A stretch of 26,541 nucleotides of DNA from a virus. Under the pieces are notes generated by a model. The model worked only from the letters and a program-made list of their open reading frames with translations, had not been told where the DNA came from and searched no databases. How positions within the stretch are numbered: position 1 is the stretch's first letter; each line of letters opens with the position of its first letter. Positions 628-19,237 of the stretch are shown piece after piece. The stretch is from the IMG/VR virus record IMGVR_UViG_3300042401_002034, positions 1 through 26,541 of that record; one strand, 5' to 3'. Both the position numbers and the translations under genes were made by a program.

Positions 628-1245
628 ATGGCAGTATGTGGTGTAACAATTTTTAGTGAAAATTTAAGTGGTCTTACGACAAACGTAACGTTTTACCCAT
701 GCTCAGGAGGCACAATATCATTAGGTGACCAAGTTTTTCCTTTTAACTATGTTGATGATTATTATTTTGGTCAGTTTGATTGTTATGTTCCCCTATATGA
801 TTACAACTACATATTAGAAATTCCTTGTCCATCACCAACACCAACCGTAACCACAACACCAACAGAAACTCCTACTGCAACGCCAACACCAACAATTACT
901 TCAACCGTAACCCCAACTCCAACAGAAACACCAACAAACACTCCAACGGTCACACCAACGATAACTCCAACAAACTCAAGATTTGAATTTATTTGTTGCA
1001 CAGGTTCTACATTATCTGATGCATGTGGATGTTTAGGTGGAACAGTATCAATTTGGGGTGACGAAAGTAATTTTGACCAAAATACATTATTTTATAATGA
1101 ACAATTGGGGCCTGTGACAATCAATATGTCAGGTTTTTATAACAACTCAAATGTTGTTATTGAGTTGATTTCTGACGGAACAACAACAGGTTTTTTCTCT
1201 TTCTGTCCGACTCCAACACCAACGGTCACACCATCGGCAATTTAA
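628..1245 (+). CDS. Modular virion/fibre protein: N-domain, Thr/Pro linker, GYYS-type module A
   Basis: The 205-residue protein has an N-terminal domain (about 1-67; Cys4, Cys25, Cys52, Cys67), a Thr/Pro-rich linker (about 68-115, [13 protein letters not shown] style), a folded module of type A (about 116-194), and a short Thr/Pro tail. Module A begins NSRFEF, has a SDACGC cysteine cluster, an [17 protein letters not shown] stretch and ends in FSFC. It closely matches two modules in the next gene (NSRNSF... and ARFSF...), so the two genes are paralogous in architecture. There is no signal peptide or transmembrane segment, as expected for an intracellularly assembled virion part. Likely a fibre, whisker or capsid decoration; that role is inferred. 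The minus-strand Val/Gly ORF across the linker is only the shadow of the repeat. Confidence 0.7.
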
Positions 1246-1292
1246 TAACAACATTTTTTTCAAACCATATAATAAAATAGCCTGAATCGTAG

Positions 1293-1300
1293 TATTTATA
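1293..1300 (+). promoter_or_regulatory. TATTTATA box, 17 nt before ATG
   Basis: AGTATTTATAAG lies 17 bases upstream of the ATG at 1318 in a non-coding spacer (1246-1317). It is an exact copy of the box seen before the preceding gene; putative phage late promoter. Confidence 0.5.
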
Positions 1301-1317
1301 AGAAAAATAGTAATACA

Positions 1318-3117
1318 ATGGCATGTAGCAAATATACACTAACGAATACTGGTTCAACAACAGTAAATTTTAATTATCAAAGATGTGATGACACTCTTTG
1401 GCAATATCAAATAGAATTATTACCAAATCAAACAAAAAATATTTGGCTTGTAAATGGAACATATTCTTCCGCTCAATTATTTCAACAATCAATTGTTTTA
1501 ATTGATAACGGAGTTTTCCCTCCACTTCAAATCACTCCTACACCATCTGTTACGCCAACATTAACTCCAACACCTACGGTTACTTCTACAGTAACTCCAA
1601 CACCGAGTGTAACGGCAACAGTTACTCCAACTGTTACACCAACAATAACAGTAACACCGACAAACTCGAGAAATAGCTTCGCAGTTACATCGGGAACAAC
1701 TGCAGAAATTGCTTGTCAGGGAATTAACCCGACAACAATTTGGGGAGAAGACCTAGCATTTGATGCTAACACACAATTCTACAATTCAGTATCAGGACCT
1801 GTATCAATTGACATGACAGGTTACTATAGTGATGGTACGGACGTTGTTCAAGTTGATTCAACAGGAACAACAGTTGGATTCTTTACAATATGTTTAACTC
1901 CAACTCCAACTCCAACGAACACACAAACTCCAACAGTCACTTCAACGGTGACCCCAACGGTTAGTGTAACTCCAACAATCACACCAACTCAAACTCAAAC
2001 TCCAACTCCTTCAATAGGATATTATACTTATGTATTAGGAACTGGAACAACAACAAATGACGCATGTAATAACTTTAACGTAGCACCACAAACATTATTC
2101 GGAACATTAGCAGGTGGCGTTGGACCAAACATTGGTGAAACATTATATCTCGATAGTTCGCTATCAACTCCAGCAACAAATGCATTCTATTCTAATGGAA
2201 CTGCATTATATCAAATAACAGGTGGAGCGGGATTAATAACTGCCGTGGAACCTGATGGTTGTGTCGGTATTGTAACACCAACTCCAACAATTACTGAAAC
2301 TCCAACACAAACTCCTACAAATACTCCGACAATATCTTTGACCCCAACTAACACTGTTACTCCAACAATTACTCCAACAACAACACAAACACCTACTTCA
2401 ACTGAAACACCTACACAAACACCCACACCAACTGAAACACCTACACCAACTGTGACTGCAACGGTTACTCCAACAATTACTCCGACTGCAACGGTTACTC
2501 CAACAATTACTCCAACAACAACACAAACACCAACTCCGACTCAAGCTAGATTTAGTTTCACAGTATCATCTGGTTCAACAGGATATGATGCTTGTCACGG
2601 AGGTTCTTCAGTAACAATTTATGGTGATGTTTCTATTTTCGATGATAATGATTTCTTCTATGATTCTGAAATAGGACCTGTAACAACAGATATGTCAGGG
2701 TTTTACTCAAGTGGTGGTGATGTTTGTGAGTTGATTAGTGATGGAACAACGACACCATTAGGTGCATTTTCTCTATGTGCGTCACCGACTCCTACACCAA
2801 CAATGACTCCAACAACTACTGTAACACCAACTCTCACTCCAACATCAACTGTAACACCAACACCATCAATCGGTTATTATACTTATAGTTTAGGATACGA
2901 CGCATCGTCAGCATCAACAGCATGTTCTAATTACTTTTCATCACCAATATTAGTTTACGCACCATTGATTGGTGGAGTAGGTCCAAATGTGGGTGAAACT
3001 TTATACTCTGATACGGCAACAACAACACCAGTATCAAACGGTAACTATTCTAATGGTGTTGATTATTTTGTTGTGACAGGAGGTTCAGGATTGATAAGTT
3101 CAAGAGCAAACTGTTAA
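1318..3117 (+). CDS. Large mucin-like modular virion protein with four Thr/Pro-rich stalks
   Basis: The 599-residue protein alternates folded modules with Thr/Pro tracts. The order is N-domain 1-71, linker 72-115, module A 116-193, linker 194-231, module B 232-319, long linker 320-409, module A 410-488, linker 490-516 and module B 517-599. Type A modules end in FTIC or FSLC and contain a GPV(S/T)...DM(S/T)G(Y/F)Y core. Type B modules begin SIGYYTY, contain GGVGPN(I/V)GETLY and end near GxGLI. Both types carry paired cysteines (DAC/TAC...C) and an FYS/GYYS/GNYS signature, suggesting one ancestral module. Linkers are almost purely Thr and Pro with Val, Ile, Gln and Glu, like mucin stalks. The downstream terminator ends the unit. 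Likely a fibre or head/tail surface protein for host or matrix contact; the exact virion location cannot be told from sequence. Confidence 0.75.
2356..2531 (+). repeat. Direct and tandem DNA repeats inside the longest Thr/Pro linker
   Basis: A 38-bp stretch (2356-2393) recurs exactly at 2494-2531. Between them a 30-bp unit at 2455-2484 is repeated head to tail at 2485-2514 with one mismatch (last base). Units are multiples of 3, so loss or gain by slippage or recombination keeps the frame and changes the stalk length by whole blocks. Confidence 0.85.
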
Positions 3118-8160: not shown

Positions 8161-9828
8161 ATGAACGGAGTAACTTTAGTAACGGGTATTTGGGATATTG
8201 GGAGAGGTGAACTATCTGAAGGATGGTCAAGACCTTACCAACATTATTTAGATAGATTCGAAAGATTATTGGATGTTGAAGAAAACATGATAATCTACGG
8301 TGATGAAAGTTTAAGAGAGCTTGTTTTCAGAAAAAGAACTTCAGAAAACACTCAATTTATTGTTAGAGATGTTTCTTGGTTCAAGGGTGAGTTTTATGAT
8401 AAAATTCAAAAGATAAGAACGGATTCTGATTGGTTTAATCAAGTTGGTTGGTTAAAAGATTCTACCCAAGCTAGACTCGAAAATTATAATCCTTTGGTAA
8501 TGTCAAAAGTTTTCCTTTTACATGATGCTAAGATAATGGACCAATTCAATTCCGATTATTTATTTTGGATTGATGGTGGTATTACGAATACGGTTCATTT
8601 AGGTTATTTCACTCATGACAAAGTTTTTGACAAATTACATAAGTATATTTCTAAATTTTCATTTATTTGTTTCCCATATGAAGCAACAAGTGAAATACAC
8701 GGATTTAATTCACACGTTCTAAATGAAATTGCTGGAGAAAAAGTTAACAAAGTCGCTCGAGGAGGATTTTTTGGTGGACCCAAACACACCATCACAGATA
8801 TTAATTCAATTTACTATGGGTTATTAAGTTCAACTTTGAATGATGGATACATGGGAACTGAAGAGTCTATCTTTTCAATCATGTGTTACAAACATTCAGA
8901 TTTGATAAATTACTTTGAAATTGAAGGTAACGGTTTGATTAGTAAATTTTTCGAAGATTTGAAAAATGAAACTTTGGTTGTTAAGTCTGAAAATCCTACA
9001 AGGGGAGCATCTAATTTAGATACAAATAAAGTAGGTCTTTACGTTATTGGGTTCAATAGTCCAAAACAATTCAAAACCTTGATTGATTCTATGTTGGCAT
9101 ACGACCAAGATTATATTTTAAAAACTAAAAAGTTTTTGTTAGATAATTCAACAGACTTGTCAACTAACGAGGAATACTTGGCAATTTGTCAAGAGTTTGG
9201 TTTTGAACATATTAAGAAAGATAACTTAGGTATTTGTGGAGGAAGACAATGGGTTGCTGAACATTTTGATTCAAGTGATTTAGATTACTATCTATTTTTT
9301 GAAGATGACATGTTTTTCTATAATAAAGACGGAGTTTGTAGAAATGGTTTCAATAGATTCGTTCCAAATCTTTATTCTAAGTCATTAGAAATAATGAAAA
9401 AAGAAAACTTCGATTTTTTAAAATTAAATTATTCTGAATTCTTTGGTGATAATGGAACTCAGTGGTCGTGGTATAATGTTCCACAAAGTGTTAGGGTAGA
9501 GTTTTGGCCTGAAAAACCAAGGTTACCTCGAATGGGATTAGACCCAAATGCTCCGAGAACTGTATTTGAATCGGTTCATTCTCATAAAGGTGTTCCATAT
9601 ACTAAAGGTGAAATTTATTATTGTAACTGGCCTCAAATAGTATCAAGAACAGGAAATCAAATAATGTTTTTGGATACAACTTGGGCACATCCATTCGAAC
9701 AAACTTGGATGAGTCATATGTATCAACTCACAAAAAAGGGAAAAATGTATTCAGGTTTATTATTGTTAACACCAACAGAACACGATAGATTCGAACATTA
9801 CGACAGAAGTATACGCAAAGAGTCATAA
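8161..9828 (+). CDS. Two-domain glycosyltransferase: HtrL/YibB-like N-half, GT-A-like C-half
   Basis: Residues 1-280 match the HtrL/YibB (WlaTC-like) family: VTLVTGIWDIGRG (4-16), a Trp/Tyr-rich helix, NMIIYGDE (42-49), PLVMSKVFLL (111-120), YLFWIDGGI (133-141) and a late MGTEESIFSIM (231-241). Residues 288-555 start a new beta strand, KVGLYVIGFNSPKQF, followed by a GT2-like layout with FFEDDMFFYN (379-388) as the DxD equivalent, and a WAHPFEQTW stretch near the end. The 555-residue length is about twice that of a single HtrL protein, so two transferase domains are fused. HtrL-type proteins occur in LPS/O-antigen clusters. It is the last gene of the operon; a TATTTATT box follows at 9834. Confidence 0.7.
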   Translation: MNGVTLVTGIWDIGRGELSEGWSRPYQHYLDRFERLLDVEENMIIYGDESLRELVFRKRTSENTQFIVRDVSWFKGEFYDKIQKIRTDSDWFNQVGWLKDSTQARLENYNPLVMSKVFLLHDAKIMDQFNSDYLFWIDGGITNTVHLGYFTHDKVFDKLHKYISKFSFICFPYEATSEIHGFNSHVLNEIAGEKVNKVARGGFFGGPKHTITDINSIYYGLLSSTLNDGYMGTEESIFSIMCYKHSDLINYFEIEGNGLISKFFEDLKNETLVVKSENPTRGASNLDTNKVGLYVIGFNSPKQFKTLIDSMLAYDQDYILKTKKFLLDNSTDLSTNEEYLAICQEFGFEHIKKDNLGICGGRQWVAEHFDSSDLDYYLFFEDDMFFYNKDGVCRNGFNRFVPNLYSKSLEIMKKENFDFLKLNYSEFFGDNGTQWSWYNVPQSVRVEFWPEKPRLPRMGLDPNAPRTVFESVHSHKGVPYTKGEIYYCNWPQIVSRTGNQIMFLDTTWAHPFEQTWMSHMYQLTKKGKMYSGLLLLTPTEHDRFEHYDRSIRKES

Positions 9829-13105: not shown

Positions 13106-13417
13106 TGATAAAATATACCAATTGTTAACAACGAATCTAAACTCAACACAAGCGTATCTATCCAAAAGAATTTCATCATAATCCTCATCGATTTTTCCGA
13201 TGTCAGGTTTTACGAGTGTTCTTGTCATAGCTTTGACAACTACGTGGTCTGTGGTTCTTGAGTCCAATACAATTGTTGACTCATCGATACCTCTCACAAC
13301 GATACATGCCTCTCCGTTTGTTGAGTATTCTCTTTCTGACACAGTAGATATTTCGGATGTCTTTAATGTTATTCCGTTGATAATTCTCTGTGATGGTATT
13401 GTTCTAATAATTGCCAT
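13082..13417 (-). CDS. Small virion-type protein with fibre-like C-terminus
   Basis: The 111-residue product starts at ATG 13417, sharing one base with the stop of the gp13-like gene (TAATG), so the two are probably translated together. The centre has a run of beta strands (EACIVVRGIDESTIVLDS, VVVKAMTRTLVKP), then a D-rich turn (GKIDEDYDE). The C-terminus is VEFRFVVNNWYILSSDG: an aromatic strand plus Trp-Tyr and SSDG, which recurs at the ends of phage fibre and decoration proteins with a shared trimer-type domain. No enzyme motif. Likely a small head or neck fibre/decoration protein; assignment is by pattern and context. Confidence 0.55.
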   Translation of the reverse strand: MAIIRTIPSQRIINGITLKTSEISTVSEREYSTNGEACIVVRGIDESTIVLDSRTTDHVVVKAMTRTLVKPDIGKIDEDYDEILLDRYACVEFRFVVNNWYILSSDGLKNS

Positions 13418-14544
13418 TATATTACGTATATTTGTCTTGGCATTGCTCTAAACTTCATTTGTTTATTTAAGTTCTCAGCAATTAATGCTTCTCTTTCCAT
13501 TACCTTTTCAGGTCTTAATCTTGTTAACCATCCCTCAGGACCAATAAGTTCTTCAATTAATTTGGACTTTTCGTCTTTAGATTCTGTTAATAAAGATTGG
13601 TAATCCATTATAATTTCAGAGTCAGGTGTTTTCAAATTTCCACTATACTTACCTCTTACTCTTGCTAAGGTTTCTTTAACATATGCGGTAAACCATCTTC
13701 TTACCCATTGTTTACCTGGAGTATTCAAATCTTCCCAAGTCAAATCTTCAATAGGAACGTCTGTTGGTAATTTGATAATGTCTGGATTCGCTTTCAAACA
13801 ATTTGCTCTATCATCAGAACCCACGTCATAATACCAATACCAAACGGCTTTACCAGCATATAAACTATAGTTATTCCAATTAAATCTTCCACCAGGAGTG
13901 TTGTAAAGGAAAACGTTTCTTTTACCATCAGGTAATCCTGTGATTCTATATGTTAGAGAACCACCAAGGATTCTGTTTAAGATATTTGACTCTTGCATTC
14001 TTATCAAGTAATCAAATCCTGACATCATGAAATAAGAACCTTGATAACCCATTTGAGCATACCCTGCTTCATTAGCACCTAAACCAATACCACCAAAACC
14101 GAATCCACCAACACCACCTAATCCGAAAGCGGTGAATGGTTGGTTGCTGAACCATAAAAGTTCGTTGACCTCACGACCAGCCGGTATTTCGTAGTTTTGT
14201 GTGTTTGCACTTAATATAAAATAATCTTGTTTTAATACCCAAGGACCTACAGTCTGAAGACCAACAATTTTAGAATATGAATATGCGAATTGTTGTTCGA
14301 AGTCCATTGTTCTTGTAACAAGAGCTCTGGCAACAGATTTTTCAGTCATATTAAGATTAACGAGGTTAACCCACTGACTATCAATCAACCATTGAAGAAC
14401 ATATTCTTCATAATCACCAATGGCTAGTTCCATCAGAGAATCCATCATCTCATCTTCAACTTCCACACTTCTAAGTGGAGCACCTAACAGGTGTTTAATT
14501 CTGGTATATATTTTCGACCTTTCTGGTTCTGGTATTACTGGCAT
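13417..14544 (-). CDS. Head completion/neck protein, T4 gp13-like
   Basis: The 375-residue protein begins with the gp13-type N-terminus: IYTRIKHLLGAPLRSVEVEDEMMDSLMELAI (12-42; quoted in part: RIKHLLGAPLRSVEVEDEM), i.e. a short helix, LGAP, an acidic strand and an acidic helix. In T4 gp13 with gp14 forms the neck that seals the filled head and docks the tail. It is longer than T4 gp13 (309) mainly because of a Gly-rich insertion (about 141-169, GLGGVGGFGFGGIGLG). A TATTTATA box sits 4 bases before its start. It lies on the strand opposite to the gp14-like, sheath and tube genes, unlike the usual co-directional neck-tail order, and is followed by a small fibre-like gene. Confidence 0.65.
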   Translation of the reverse strand: MPVIPEPERSKIYTRIKHLLGAPLRSVEVEDEMMDSLMELAIGDYEEYVLQWLIDSQWVNLVNLNMTEKSVARALVTRTMDFEQQFAYSYSKIVGLQTVGPWVLKQDYFILSANTQNYEIPAGREVNELLWFSNQPFTAFGLGGVGGFGFGGIGLGANEAGYAQMGYQGSYFMMSGFDYLIRMQESNILNRILGGSLTYRITGLPDGKRNVFLYNTPGGRFNWNNYSLYAGKAVWYWYYDVGSDDRANCLKANPDIIKLPTDVPIEDLTWEDLNTPGKQWVRRWFTAYVKETLARVRGKYSGNLKTPDSEIIMDYQSLLTESKDEKSKLIEELIGPEGWLTRLRPEKVMEREALIAENLNKQMKFRAMPRQIYVI

Positions 14545-14565: not shown

Positions 14566-16104
14566 TTATTCTATTTCATGTATCAGAGAATCTATGTTAA
14601 ATGAATATTGATTTTCACTTGTTAACGGATTGTTTCTGAAAATAAGTATCTTATTTGTTTTCTGATTAACAAATATTAACCAATCAGTATCATATTTTTT
14701 TACATTACCGGTGTCTAACAATTCTATCTTGTCTTTGATTATTGACATTGTTGAATATGGTTTAACTTGTGCGGTATATTCTTTATCGTTCAATTTGACA
14801 ATCAAGTCAATTCCTTTGAACGCATCTTTTTTCTGACCGTGACCACCAACTTGAATTACTTTGGCATTTTTACCAAAATATATTTCCATTTTCTTTGTTG
14901 CACTTGATTCACTTTTTTGACCCCTTTTCCATAACGCCATCAAAACTTTTATGATATTGATGAAGTCTTTATTTTCTTTAGTAAAAATTTCACCCTTGAA
15001 ATATTCCAATGCCCTTAAGAACCTTTTTACCTCTTCTAAATTTCTGTTTTCAGGTTTTGAAAAATCAAACAACTTATCCATTTGACCTAATCCTTCAATT
15101 TGATTATTAACCGCTTTTACGATTAAACAAAACGAATTGAAATTCGTGTTCAAGTTATTTAACATGGACCTACCTTCTTTGGTTTCTATTCCATAAAATC
15201 CTGACATTTCTTTTGATGTCGAATCAACCCAAAATTGACTAAATACCTTTTTCAAGATGTGTGTTATACCATTTTGATAAACGTCTTTAATCTTTCTATT
15301 ATTGATTAATTCATTATAAAACGCAACCTCTTTTGGAGAACAAAATTTAGGTTCAGCTGCTTCAGAAATTACCTTTGAAAATCCCTCAGATTCTAAAAGT
15401 TTTGTTTGAGTTCTCATTTCATAAAGTTTGGTAATGAAGTCCCAATTGACAACTTTCCAAAAGTTTGCAATATATTCGTCTCGTTTGTTTCTATACTTCA
15501 AATAATATGCGTGTTCCCAAAGGTCCAACCCTAAAAGTGGAAACCCACCTCCCTCAATAACATTCATCAAAGGATTGTCTTGGTTTGGAGTTGACATAAT
15601 TTTTAAACCATTCTTTGCGGTCAAGACCAACCAAACCCATCCTGAACCAAATCTATCTTTGGCGACGGCTTCAAATTTTTTCTTAAATTCTGGAAAACTA
15701 CCGAATTCTTTTGTAATTTTTTTGTATAAGTCACCCGTCAACTTTTTTGGTTGTGGTGTTAACATGTTCCAAAATAACGCGTGATTAAAAGCACCACCTG
15801 CATTATTTCTTATTGTTTTGTCAAATCGGCTGATTGTTTTGATGATTTGTTCTAGTTCTAAATCACCATATTTTTTCTTTGATAACGCTGCGTTTAGTTT
15901 ATCCACATACCCTTTGTAATGTTTGTTATAATGGAAATCCATTGTTTCCGCATCGATAAATTGTTTCAGGGCTGAATAGGAATAAGGTAATTTTTCTATT
16001 CCAATTTTTTTCATTTCATTAATCAACAACTTTTTTTCTTCTTGAATGTGGTTTTCGTGTAATTGTTTTTCAAGTTGTTGAATTTTCTCTTCTGTCTTGT
16101 TCAT
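14566..16104 (-). CDS. Mn/Fe superoxide dismutase fused to a PD-(D/E)XK nuclease-like domain
   Basis: The 512-residue protein has a coiled-coil-like N-terminus (1-35), a complete superoxide dismutase domain (about 36-230) and a long extension. All four metal ligands are visible: H58 (DFHYNKHY), H108 (GGAFNHALFW), D194 and H198 (LDLWEHAYY). Q175 in STPNQDNPL and Gly at the Fe-type Gln position point to the Mn type; one second-sphere residue differs (GGAFNH for the usual GGHxNH). Residues 400-490 carry a nuclease-like core: MEIYFGKNAKVIQVGGHG, then GIDLIVK (D433), then YTAQVKPY (Q446-x-K448), the Q-variant of D...(D/E/Q)xK. The SOD removes superoxide; the second domain may bind or cut DNA. Its own TATTTATA box lies 20 bases upstream. 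A fusion of these two domains is unusual. Confidence 0.85.
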   Translation of the reverse strand: MNKTEEKIQQLEKQLHENHIQEEKKLLINEMKKIGIEKLPYSYSALKQFIDAETMDFHYNKHYKGYVDKLNAALSKKKYGDLELEQIIKTISRFDKTIRNNAGGAFNHALFWNMLTPQPKKLTGDLYKKITKEFGSFPEFKKKFEAVAKDRFGSGWVWLVLTAKNGLKIMSTPNQDNPLMNVIEGGGFPLLGLDLWEHAYYLKYRNKRDEYIANFWKVVNWDFITKLYEMRTQTKLLESEGFSKVISEAAEPKFCSPKEVAFYNELINNRKIKDVYQNGITHILKKVFSQFWVDSTSKEMSGFYGIETKEGRSMLNNLNTNFNSFCLIVKAVNNQIEGLGQMDKLFDFSKPENRNLEEVKRFLRALEYFKGEIFTKENKDFINIIKVLMALWKRGQKSESSATKKMEIYFGKNAKVIQVGGHGQKKDAFKGIDLIVKLNDKEYTAQVKPYSTMSIIKDKIELLDTGNVKKYDTDWLIFVNQKTNKILIFRNNPLTSENQYSFNIDSLIHEIE

Positions 16105-16145: not shown

Positions 16146-17900
16146 TTAATGACGCATTTCATTAATTCTCTTTAAAATTTCTTCAGCAACGTCTCCGCTG
16201 TTTTGATTGTCCCCCATCACCGTGGCAATCACTTGTTTTTTATTATTCAATATGTCGTAGATAATTCCTTCGATTGTGTTCTCGAATATGGGGTAGTAAA
16301 CTAATACATTATTTTTTTGACCGTATCTATAAGCTCGGTCTTCTGCTTGGGCGTGGTCTGATGGTAAAAATGAAAGGTCGTTCATTATTACTGCTTCAGC
16401 AGCTGTAAGAGTAAGTCCAACACCTGCGGCTTTAATATTGCCAACAAATACTTTAACCTTTGGGTTATCTTGGAATTCATCGACACTATGTTGTCTTTCA
16501 GGTTTAGACATTGAACCGTCGACTTTTACTGCCGCTTTACCAAAGTGTTCAACAATTTTATTTAATGATTCTGTGAAGTTACAGAATATGATAACCTTCT
16601 TGTCTTGTTCTAAAATGTTTTCGGTTAGTTCAATTGTTTGTGTAATTTTTTCGTTGGCAATTATTTGACGAATTTTTGTCAACTTTGTGAACTGAACTGT
16701 TAATGATTTAGATTCTTCGGGATTCTTTTCATACCAATTATAATATTCACCCATAACTTCTTCATACTCTTTAGATTTCAATCTTAAGTATACCGGTGTT
16801 ATAATCTTATCGGGAAGGTCTAACACATCTTCTTTAAGTCTTCTAAGGGTTAATCCTAATGTTCTGTCTCTAAGTTCTTCAAGGTTCGATGCACCCATGA
16901 CATTCCAAACTTTTCTTGGACCAACTTTAAATTGATATCCTTGACAATACCTGATTACATATGCCATCCAATTTTTTGCCACAGGAGAATCGACCAAACT
17001 TAATAAGTTATAATAATCAATTGGTCTTGAAGTCATCGGGGTTCCTGTAAGGAGCCAAATCCTATCAACATTTTTTACAATGTCATTTATTAATTTTGTT
17101 CTTTGAGCCTGAGCATTTTTGATATAGTGTGCTTCATCAACAACAACCAAATCAAAATTGGCTCTAAGAATTTCCGAATCATCTTTCTTTTTAGGGTCAT
17201 GGAAATTTTTTATTATGTCGTAGTTTATGATTACAAAGTCGTGTTCTGTTGAAAAGTTTTTCCCTTCTGCAATATAAACACTTCTGTCTGAATAATTTTC
17301 AATCTCTCTTTTCCAGTTTATTTTAAGTGTTGCAGGACAAATGATTAATATCTTTTTTGCACCTGTTTCGAGAGCACCAATAATGGTTGATGTTGTTTTA
17401 CCAAGACCCATATCATCTGCCAAAATGTATCTTTTGTTTTCAACCAATTTTTGTATTGCTTCTTTTTGGTGAGATAGTGGAGGACGGTGAGAATATTTTT
17501 CATAATCGATGACAACGTCTTTTACTGTGTTGTCTTTAATGATGGACGCCTTCGGTAACCAAAAATCATGAAACTCTTCCGTTTCAAACACTCTTCCCCA
17601 AATGTGATACGCTTTATCTTTTTCAGCTAATAATTTTTCAACCCAAACCTTCTGTGGTATTTCTGTGTATAATTTATCGTCAGCCAATTTTTGTGCGAAG
17701 TATGCATCGAGTATTATCCATTTCTTTGCAACCTTAGGTTGTTTGTCATGATTGTTGATAATGTATTCTGATTGACTTCTGGTTGGATAAAACTTTCGGT
17801 TGACTTGGGATTTTCTTTTCAGTTCAAGCAAATAATTGTTAGCTCCTTCGTAATTCTCAAGAAGTAACAACGCCTTTGATTCTAAACTAATATTTTCCAT
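16146..17900 (-). CDS. SNF2-family helicase/translocase
   Basis: The 584-residue protein has all SNF2/SF2 ATPase motifs: ADDMGLGKTT (161-170, Walker A), KKILIICPATLKINW (motif Ia), VVVDEAHYIKN (252-262, DEAH box), WLLTGTP (282-288), then lobe 2 with KVIIFCNFT, GVGLTLTAAE and QAEDRAYRYGQ (518-528, motif VI). The family translocates on double-stranded DNA using ATP, and phage members take part in replication restart, recombination or repair, a role close to T4 UvsW though UvsW is a different SF2 branch. Residues 1-135 are a phage-type N-domain I cannot assign. The ATG overlaps the SET gene stop by one base (TAATG), so the two are coupled. Confidence 0.93.
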   Translation of the reverse strand: MENISLESKALLLLENYEGANNYLLELKRKSQVNRKFYPTRSQSEYIINNHDKQPKVAKKWIILDAYFAQKLADDKLYTEIPQKVWVEKLLAEKDKAYHIWGRVFETEEFHDFWLPKASIIKDNTVKDVVIDYEKYSHRPPLSHQKEAIQKLVENKRYILADDMGLGKTTSTIIGALETGAKKILIICPATLKINWKREIENYSDRSVYIAEGKNFSTEHDFVIINYDIIKNFHDPKKKDDSEILRANFDLVVVDEAHYIKNAQAQRTKLINDIVKNVDRIWLLTGTPMTSRPIDYYNLLSLVDSPVAKNWMAYVIRYCQGYQFKVGPRKVWNVMGASNLEELRDRTLGLTLRRLKEDVLDLPDKIITPVYLRLKSKEYEEVMGEYYNWYEKNPEESKSLTVQFTKLTKIRQIIANEKITQTIELTENILEQDKKVIIFCNFTESLNKIVEHFGKAAVKVDGSMSKPERQHSVDEFQDNPKVKVFVGNIKAAGVGLTLTAAEAVIMNDLSFLPSDHAQAEDRAYRYGQKNNVLVYYPIFENTIEGIIYDILNNKKQVIATVMGDNQNSGDVAEEILKRINEMRH

Positions 17901-18308: not shown

Positions 18309-18821
18309 ATGGAAAATTTAGTCCCAATAACAAGATTAGGTAAATTCTTTGGTCGTGAAGACTATGCTTTAGATATTGGTATGGGTGAAGAGTGGTTGAT
18401 TGGTGATATGAACTTTACCGTTATATTATATCGTATTGATAGATATAAGACAAAGACCGATGATGTTTATGGTGAGGTGTTAGAAGATGGTATTCAGTTC
18501 TTGGCTCCTATTGAACTTAAGGGATATGTTCAAGTTATGGCTCCGGCTAATAAAAACTATGGTAACTCTAAAGTTGAAATTCACGAACCTGGTAATATGA
18601 AGTTTTCAATCTATCAAAAGACTCTTGAAGATTTAGATGTTGAGATATTCAAAGGTGATTATTTCGGATATTATGAAACAGAGGATAGGGTGAGATATTA
18701 TGTTGTTAGTGATGATGGATTTGTCAGGTCTGATAATAAACATACGTATGGTGGGTATAAGCCGTTCTATAGAACGATAACAGCAACATTCGTTAGTGAA
18801 AACGAATTCAGAGGTATATGA
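18309..18821 (+). CDS. Probable neck protein, T4 gp14-like
   Basis: The 170-residue protein contains DDVYGEVLEDGIQF and PIELKGYVQVMAP, then KFSIYQKTLEDLDVEIFKGDYF and YYVVSDDG. The order (YGE segment, beta-rich middle, then a 'G-D-Y-F...' turn and a strand pair) resembles the gp14 neck family, where a VxPDxxFGED and GDLIYFP pattern is seen. It is shorter than T4 gp14 (256). Position supports it: it precedes gp15-like, sheath and tube genes, the T4 order 14-15-18-19. The stop overlaps the next ATG (ATGA). Assignment is moderate; it could be another small head-tail connector. Confidence 0.5.
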   Translation: MENLVPITRLGKFFGREDYALDIGMGEEWLIGDMNFTVILYRIDRYKTKTDDVYGEVLEDGIQFLAPIELKGYVQVMAPANKNYGNSKVEIHEPGNMKFSIYQKTLEDLDVEIFKGDYFGYYETEDRVRYYVVSDDGFVRSDNKHTYGGYKPFYRTITATFVSENEFRGI

Positions 18822-19237
18822 TAATTCTAATAACCGAGGCTCAAAAAAAATCTTTATCGAACAGTTTAATCGGTGAAAGGGTTATGGTTTATTATAATTT
18901 ACATAAACACACCTTTTCAGTTCAGAAAAATGGGATTGTTGTTTTTCACGCCGATTACTTGAAATTGAAAGATGTTGAGTTCAGAGTTAGAGTTGGGGGA
19001 AAAGAAAAGGTTAGAAAAGAAAAATCGAAGAATGTTCATGCATTCGTTATTGGTATCTTAGAAGATTTTTGTGAATATCCTTGTGAGGAAATGCCTGAAG
19101 AACCTGTGGGTGAGATAATAACATATAATCCGTATTTATATGATAGTTTTGTTTTCAGAAAAACGAAAGAGCCAGTATACAACGCAAATGAGGTTGTTAT
19201 GATAAACTTAAAAAATAAAATATTTGTAATCGAATAA
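18818..19237 (+). CDS. Hypothetical protein with N-terminal LITEAQ tag
   Basis: The 139-residue protein overlaps the preceding gene by ATGA. It begins MIILITEAQKKSL, resembling the 'hydrophobic-I-x-E' start of several proteins in this window and of T4 capsid-targeting sequences. A basic stretch (GGKEKVRKEKSKN, about 66-78) is followed by an acidic Cys/Pro segment (FCEYPCEEMPEEPVGE). The C-terminus is beta-rich. No known domain seen. Genes between neck and tail-completion functions often encode virion or assembly proteins; that is the only hint. Function unknown. Confidence 0.6.
   Translation: MIILITEAQKKSLSNSLIGERVMVYYNLHKHTFSVQKNGIVVFHADYLKLKDVEFRVRVGGKEKVRKEKSKNVHAFVIGILEDFCEYPCEEMPEEPVGEIITYNPYLYDSFVFRKTKEPVYNANEVVMINLKNKIFVIE

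Follow-up and report, generated by a model that had tools for sequence, protein, structure and literature searches.

A single gene in a viral contig raises the question of why a phage should encode a superoxide dismutase (SOD) followed by a C-terminal part (residues 231-512 of the protein) that is matched by no family in Pfam, and of what the two halves do. The contig, analysed over its whole length of 26.5 kb and called the window here, carries T4-like genes for a tail sheath, a neck protein, PolB and an SNF2 helicase. The fusion gene is a single uninterrupted frame of 512 aa, and the downstream neck gene follows on the same strand after a gap of 21 bp (Table 1).

Table 1. Coordinates of the features discussed, in the window unless a related contig (L088) is named
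Feature	Position	Strand	Basis
Fusion gene	14566-16104	-	
N-terminal leader, residues 1-30, ending [LFI][IL]xE/M before the conserved SOD start	16015..16104	-	E30 and M31 invariant, 108/108
Fe/Mn superoxide dismutase, Mn-type, residues 31-229	15418..16014	-	PF00081/PF02777; invariant residues; PDB MnSODs, E down to 1.7e-59
Junction leader KLxE[ST]...hhxE/[SGA], residues 230-248, predicted prohead-protease-type site after E248	15361..15417	-	hhxE[ASG] in 100/108
Helical half of the module, residues 249-398, RSMLNNLNTNF motif	14911..15360	-	Family alignment; model helices; homology to gp82-like fusions
PD-(D/E)XK-like nuclease core, residues 399-512	14569..14910	-	E399, D427, D433, Q446, K448 invariant, 108/108; Foldseek; dN/dS ~0.085
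D433 codon, predicted metal ligand	14806..14808	-	Invariant, 108/108
Q446-V-K448 codons, predicted QxK catalytic motif	14761..14769	-	Invariant, 108/108; same QxK as DREN Q60/K62
GAGTTATTTATATGTAAGAATAACTC hairpin, conserved TTATTTAT 20-30 nt 5' of the start codon	16111..16136	-	Upstream sequences of relatives
SNF2-type helicase, upstream neighbour	16146..17900	-	PF00176, E 1.1e-28; syntenic anchor, kept upstream in relatives
Head-tail adaptor (neck) protein, downstream neighbour	13417..14544	-	phrog_211, E 3.4e-9; kept downstream in relatives
PF25735 (L5 gp82-like) protein	18818..19237	+	PF25735, E 1.9e-29; homologues in related phages bear a second nuclease-module copy
Tail sheath protein, 1069 aa	20567-23776	+	Sheath profile matches limited to about the last 220 residues
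555-aa protein	8161-9828	+	N-terminal HtrL_YibB, PF09612, E 1.7e-21; weak glucosyltransferase PHROG match further on
PF25735 protein with second nuclease-like module	L088 5488-6933	-	Likewise in L095, L097, L101, L104, L107, L111, L113

To begin with, the fusion is widespread. A scan of viral contigs gave 595 related stretches, the best 80 of which all had the fused C-terminus, with a mean identity to the window of 90% in the SOD and 65% in the C-terminal part. A second scan was queried with the SOD part of a divergent relative. Here the protein was fused in 78 of the best 80; of the other two, L242 is cut off by a contig end and L240 probably has a frameshift. The preliminary description had proposed a search for the same architecture in other phages; among viral contigs it is present in at least 108 distinct full-length proteins, several of them on contigs of 317-322 kb. 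An assembly artefact or a chance frame is excluded by this number of distinct sequences. Both halves are under purifying selection, with dN/dS values of about 0.03 for the SOD and of 0.06 and 0.085 for the C-terminal part. A UniProt entry from an uncultured Caudovirales phage (A0A6J5L953, 501 aa) appears to be the same fusion, since it matches the C-terminal part over its full length (BFVD, TMq 0.67, 30% identity, E 7.4e-17); it is recorded only as a superoxide dismutase, that is, by its SOD half. A literature search returned nothing on a SOD-nuclease phage protein, and a search for virion proteomics of a relative likewise gave no result.

With regard to the N-terminal half, Pfam placed Sod_Fe_N (PF00081, E 1.5e-22) at residues 36-115 and Sod_Fe_C (PF02777, E 1.3e-39) at residues 123-226, and residues 36-222 are 49.5% identical to an enterobacterial-type SOD. 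An intact frame with the four metal ligands H58, H108, D194 and H198 had been described for this gene; this was confirmed, and the ligands are invariant in all 108 distinct full-length relatives. The Mn-type second-sphere residues G104 and Q175 are equally invariant (108/108), and it is this pair on which the predicted preference for Mn is based. The ligands and the Gly/Gln pair are shared with bacterial Mn-SODs of the SodA type, from which the fusion differs by an extra leader of about 30 residues and a C-terminal extension of 280 residues. The SODs of other phages that we checked are also different in being stand-alone proteins of 182-199 aa. Apart from its end at E30, the leader (residues 1-30) is poorly conserved among the 108 fusions.

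For the C-terminal module (residues 249-512), profile searches gave no significant match in Pfam, nothing convincing among PDB sequences or in PADLOC, and in the PHROGs a weak uncharacterised match only (phrog_5018, 17 of 33 members, best E 7.9e-5). Bacterial and archaeal genomes, scanned twice, yielded no relatives, tblastn searches of phage records with the module sequences P0003 and P0002 yielded none either, and in the 484-kb relative LR756508 no module was present within the 35 kb around the helicase. In an AlphaFold model built from 33 family members (pLDDT 81), the helical half leads through a long helix into a beta-rich core, where D433 and Q446/K448 lie on adjacent strands (E198-208 and E211-220 in module numbering). 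Foldseek returned the PD-(D/E)XK homing endonuclease I-Ssp6803I (2OST) as the best PDB match of this model (E 2.2e-3, prob 1.00), with further matches to the SPARDA DREN nuclease and to the Holliday junction resolvase of Thermus phage 15-6. A second model, of a paralogous module described below (12 sequences, pLDDT 82), again had I-Ssp6803I first, followed by archaeal Hjc resolvases. These scores are moderate (E 2e-3 and 1e-2, with a target-normalised TM of about 0.4). The D433...Q446-x-K448 arrangement listed in the preliminary description is present in the extension, and E399, G423, D427, G431, D433, Q446 and K448 are all invariant in the 108 fusions.

DREN itself resembles I-Ssp6803I and has the catalytic residues D41, Q60 and K62 (PMC12205087), so that the predicted D..QxK residues of the module correspond to those of a nuclease that is also among its fold matches. 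Because the two models agree and the triad is absolutely conserved, PD-(D/E)XK is the best reading of the module, and we regard its prediction as a nuclease of this type as very probable. The earlier assignment of the C-terminal half to this fold is probably right in as far as 2OST is the best match of both models and the D..QxK pattern is that of DREN, but the canonical second helix of the core is absent from the first model. The module and I-Ssp6803I have in common a long helix followed by strands; they share only 13-16% identity at a low TM, and the module has no intron and is a C-terminal domain with an added helical half. DREN belongs to a short-Argonaute system, whereas an Argonaute or APAZ domain was not found in the fusion protein.

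To see how the two halves occur relative to each other, the interval between helicase and neck gene was read in 160 relatives, with the neck protein as bait. It held the SOD with the module in 123 of them, a SOD without this type of module in 25, the module without a SOD in 10-11, and nothing in one (L263). The 25 SOD loci comprise nine SODs alone (about 260 aa), 15 fusions to a HEXXH-domain and one SOD with a diverged C-terminal domain (L300). The HEXXH-domain is N-terminal in these fusions, carries a HEWVH or HEWIH motif and has no Pfam match; by its motif it would be metallopeptidase-like. In the module-only forms the N-terminal leader and an hhxSE/S junction are kept and the SOD is cleanly gone, as in L267 (MKNTENKVNLIIEEIKKNETDRKVTLILSE/SKAEKCS; here and below a slash follows the Glu of the motif). 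The SOD and the module each persist without the other at this one locus, which makes a redox-coupled enzyme unlikely, and the earlier proposal of a redox-linked DNA effector is therefore not upheld. Most likely, as judged from these gene arrangements, the SOD and the module work independently.

Some further domains were observed among these contigs. HEXXH-domain-SOD proteins of about 700 aa (L259, L291, L295, L298, L307 and L311) have an extra C-terminal domain, GYDFEALIAGLLGG...YDVFTTNGDKISCKII, which looks PD-(D/E)XK-like by eye; it had no Pfam match, and the two that were scanned had no PHROG match. A protein of L313 (3392-4477, plus strand) and the C-terminus of L300 have a DWSxxNxFDTN motif with a D..QxK-like core behind it, and they appear to form a diverged branch of the module family. 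In L320, a 243-aa ORF of zinc-finger or HNH appearance (688-1419, plus strand) separates the helicase from a gene for the module alone.

Next we considered the borders between the domains. Among the 108 fusions, the motif hhxE (hydrophobic-hydrophobic-x-Glu) is conserved at two positions only, E30 (108/108) and E248 (104/108), and these two flank the SOD. At E248 the motif is followed by A, S or G in 100 of the 108, while the next commonest such position reaches 19; the motif is short, with a background of about 0.7% per residue in the proteome of the relative G001, a 321-kb contig. Met, as found after E30, is unusual for a gp21 site. A few junctions between SOD and module are without hhxE (L101, L235 and L236). 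The border between HEXXH-domain and SOD has an hhxE-type [FY]E motif in 14 of 14 distinct fusions (LVFE/S, MMYE/G, IIYE/E and SIFE/G), and a similar two-motif junction leader is seen in fusions of the PF25735 protein, for instance VINEIKSKIIKE/SEEE.

Glu is the residue after which T4 gp21 and the prohead proteases of giant phages cut (PMC5694885). In the relative G001, a T4-type gp21 prohead protease is encoded (PF03420, E 1e-21), as is a capsid protein of gp23 type (PF07068, E 4.2e-71); both lie outside what the 26.5-kb window contains. By analogy, HLINE/ASS at the expected end of the propeptide would be a candidate site in the gp23-type protein of G001, and QIVSE/ANV in the capsid protein and GLLTE/SKV in the protease would be candidate sites in the cultured Flavobacterium phage immuto. 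In T4, 65 residues are removed from gp23, and a capsid-targeting sequence of about 10 aa directs proteins into the core (PMC9958956); the internal proteins of T4 are otherwise diverse and have only this targeting sequence in common (PMC3012670). The present proteins are candidate parallels of the internal head proteins of T4 (IPI-III and Alt) and of the ejection proteins that prohead protease cuts in giant phages, given their short leaders, their candidate cleavage after Glu and the diversity of cargo domains in one locus. The fusion differs from them in that a leader stands between two enzyme domains, and the papers searched describe no comparable SOD or nuclease as cargo.

A candidate for a capsid-targeting tag was seen in G001 (loci L118-L134), where a short leader with the pattern LTESDLxRLVxxVLxE stands at the front of many unlike proteins, among them those at 199373-199729, 202589-202996 and 214551-214850, all on the minus strand. 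A regular expression for this leader matched 18 times within the first 30 residues of the 421 ORFs and four times internally, one of the four being the junction between SOD and nuclease. These leaders may have another role, since at least one of the many G001 proteins that they head looks membrane-bound.

Our tentative explanation, for which we see about as much to say as against it, is that the fusion is a modular, head-targeted and protease-processed cassette of a Mn-type SOD and a PD-(D/E)XK nuclease. The layout would be that of a polyprotein, with a leader (1-30), the SOD (31-248) and the endonuclease module (249-512). The protein would be targeted into a T4-like prohead, where a gp21-type protease would cut it after E248 and perhaps also after E30; the freed SOD and nuclease would travel in the virion and reach the cell together with the DNA. 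Inside the cell, the predicted task of the SOD is to remove superoxide and that of the metal-dependent nuclease to cut DNA, be it that of the host, of a rival or of a plasmid. We infer head targeting and processing from the hhxE motifs at the borders, the gp21 and gp23 relatives, the T4 analogy and the adjoining neck gene, and cleavage, packaging, injection, catalysis and the DNA target are all put forward in this sense. It is also possible, though here we are more hesitant, that the whole locus is an exchangeable polyprotein cassette for a HEXXH-domain protein, SOD and several nuclease-like domains, with prohead-protease sites between them and delivery along with the genome, in which case the SOD-nuclease fusion would be one of several domain combinations at the locus.

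Alternatively, the protein may stay uncut and act in the cytoplasm during infection as a two-domain enzyme, the SOD limiting superoxide in the dying host and the tethered nuclease degrading host DNA or processing phage DNA. The fusion is indeed intact and near-universal in close relatives, and the adjoining helicase could mean a context of DNA metabolism. Moreover, DREN and I-Ssp6803I are tetrameric (PMC12205087), which makes an oligomeric partner plausible, and the SOD dimer or tetramer may then provide the scaffold on which a tetrameric nuclease assembles. However, SOD-only and module-only forms with the same leaders occur at the same locus, so that tethering is not required, and this reading does not account for the conservation of hhxE at the borders; we consider an uncut enzyme unlikely.

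The module is also found on other genes. In L088 and related contigs (L092-L113) the homologue of the window's PF25735 gene has a C-terminal extension, a second module that some phages have and others, such as the window, lack. Profile comparison by hhalign related the SOD-borne and the PF25735-borne module with E 2.9e-13 over 194 columns that take in both the helical half and the core, the RSMLNNLNTNF region of the former being homologous to the DWSIMNYFDTK region of the gp82-like fusions. A third member, in G001, is a free-standing protein of 454 aa, the second module occurs without the PF25735 domain in L324 and L326, and a marine phage protein of 1113 aa in the BFVD has a module-related domain. 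Judged by these comparisons, the module behaves as a movable unit that is fused to a SOD or to a PF25735 protein or stands free. Its position behind two unrelated genes, its free-standing form, its presence on the PF25735 gene in some phages only and the homing endonuclease I-Ssp6803I as its nearest solved fold would all suit a selfish, homing-type nuclease cassette that attaches downstream of phage genes, the SOD being merely the host gene. This is improbable, as the module is almost fixed behind the SOD in close relatives and under purifying selection, and as SOD-less modules at the same locus, where other domains are exchanged too, do not conform to homing behaviour. That the module keeps the nuclease fold as a DNA-binding anchor holding the SOD on phage DNA, as the preliminary description had suggested, would bring a simple benefit by protecting packaged DNA and would agree with the SOD as the best conserved part (dN/dS 0.03), but it is quite improbable given that none of D433, Q446, K448 and E399 varies among the 108 fusions, which points to catalysis, and that module-only and SOD-only forms exist.

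If the reading as a head-targeted, processed cassette is correct, a phage packages an antioxidant and a DNA-cutting enzyme by means of a proteolytically split fusion, and hhxE at domain borders would be a sequence rule by which the large phages of aquatic Bacteroidota can be searched for further injected cargo. The module represents a nuclease-like family that has no significant Pfam model and is attached to two or more different phage genes. Whether packaging is right or wrong, an abundant phage group has a SOD-nuclease fusion that is near-fixed, is under purifying selection and has so far been recorded as a plain SOD. The phages that carry it are probably large and T4-like with a host among the Bacteroidota, the latter because of the style of signal peptides in G001 (SFGQ, TFAQ) and the similarity of the sheath to that of Flavobacterium phage immuto.

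Finally, the sequence upstream of the gene was compared. A T4-like TATAAATA late promoter found no support, since the motif (up to one mismatch) is no more frequent in the window than chance predicts and lies on the opposite strand. TTATTTAT or TATTTAT precedes the SOD gene in 77 of 80 distinct upstream sequences, and the hairpin (8-nt arms, up to one mismatch) is kept in 40 of these 77. Within it TTATTTAT is constant and the outer stem varies (GAG, GGA, GGC and GGG pairs). In G001, a TTATTTATA motif like that before the SOD gene lies 29 nt 5' of the start of a gene (126060-129335, plus strand) for a protein of 1091 aa, whose signal peptide (SFGQ) is in the style of the Bacteroidota. In LR756508.1 (L244), several adjoining ORFs at about 180000-215000 share YRGT...IRKDR...KRSESKF and possibly form a repeated effector-like family.
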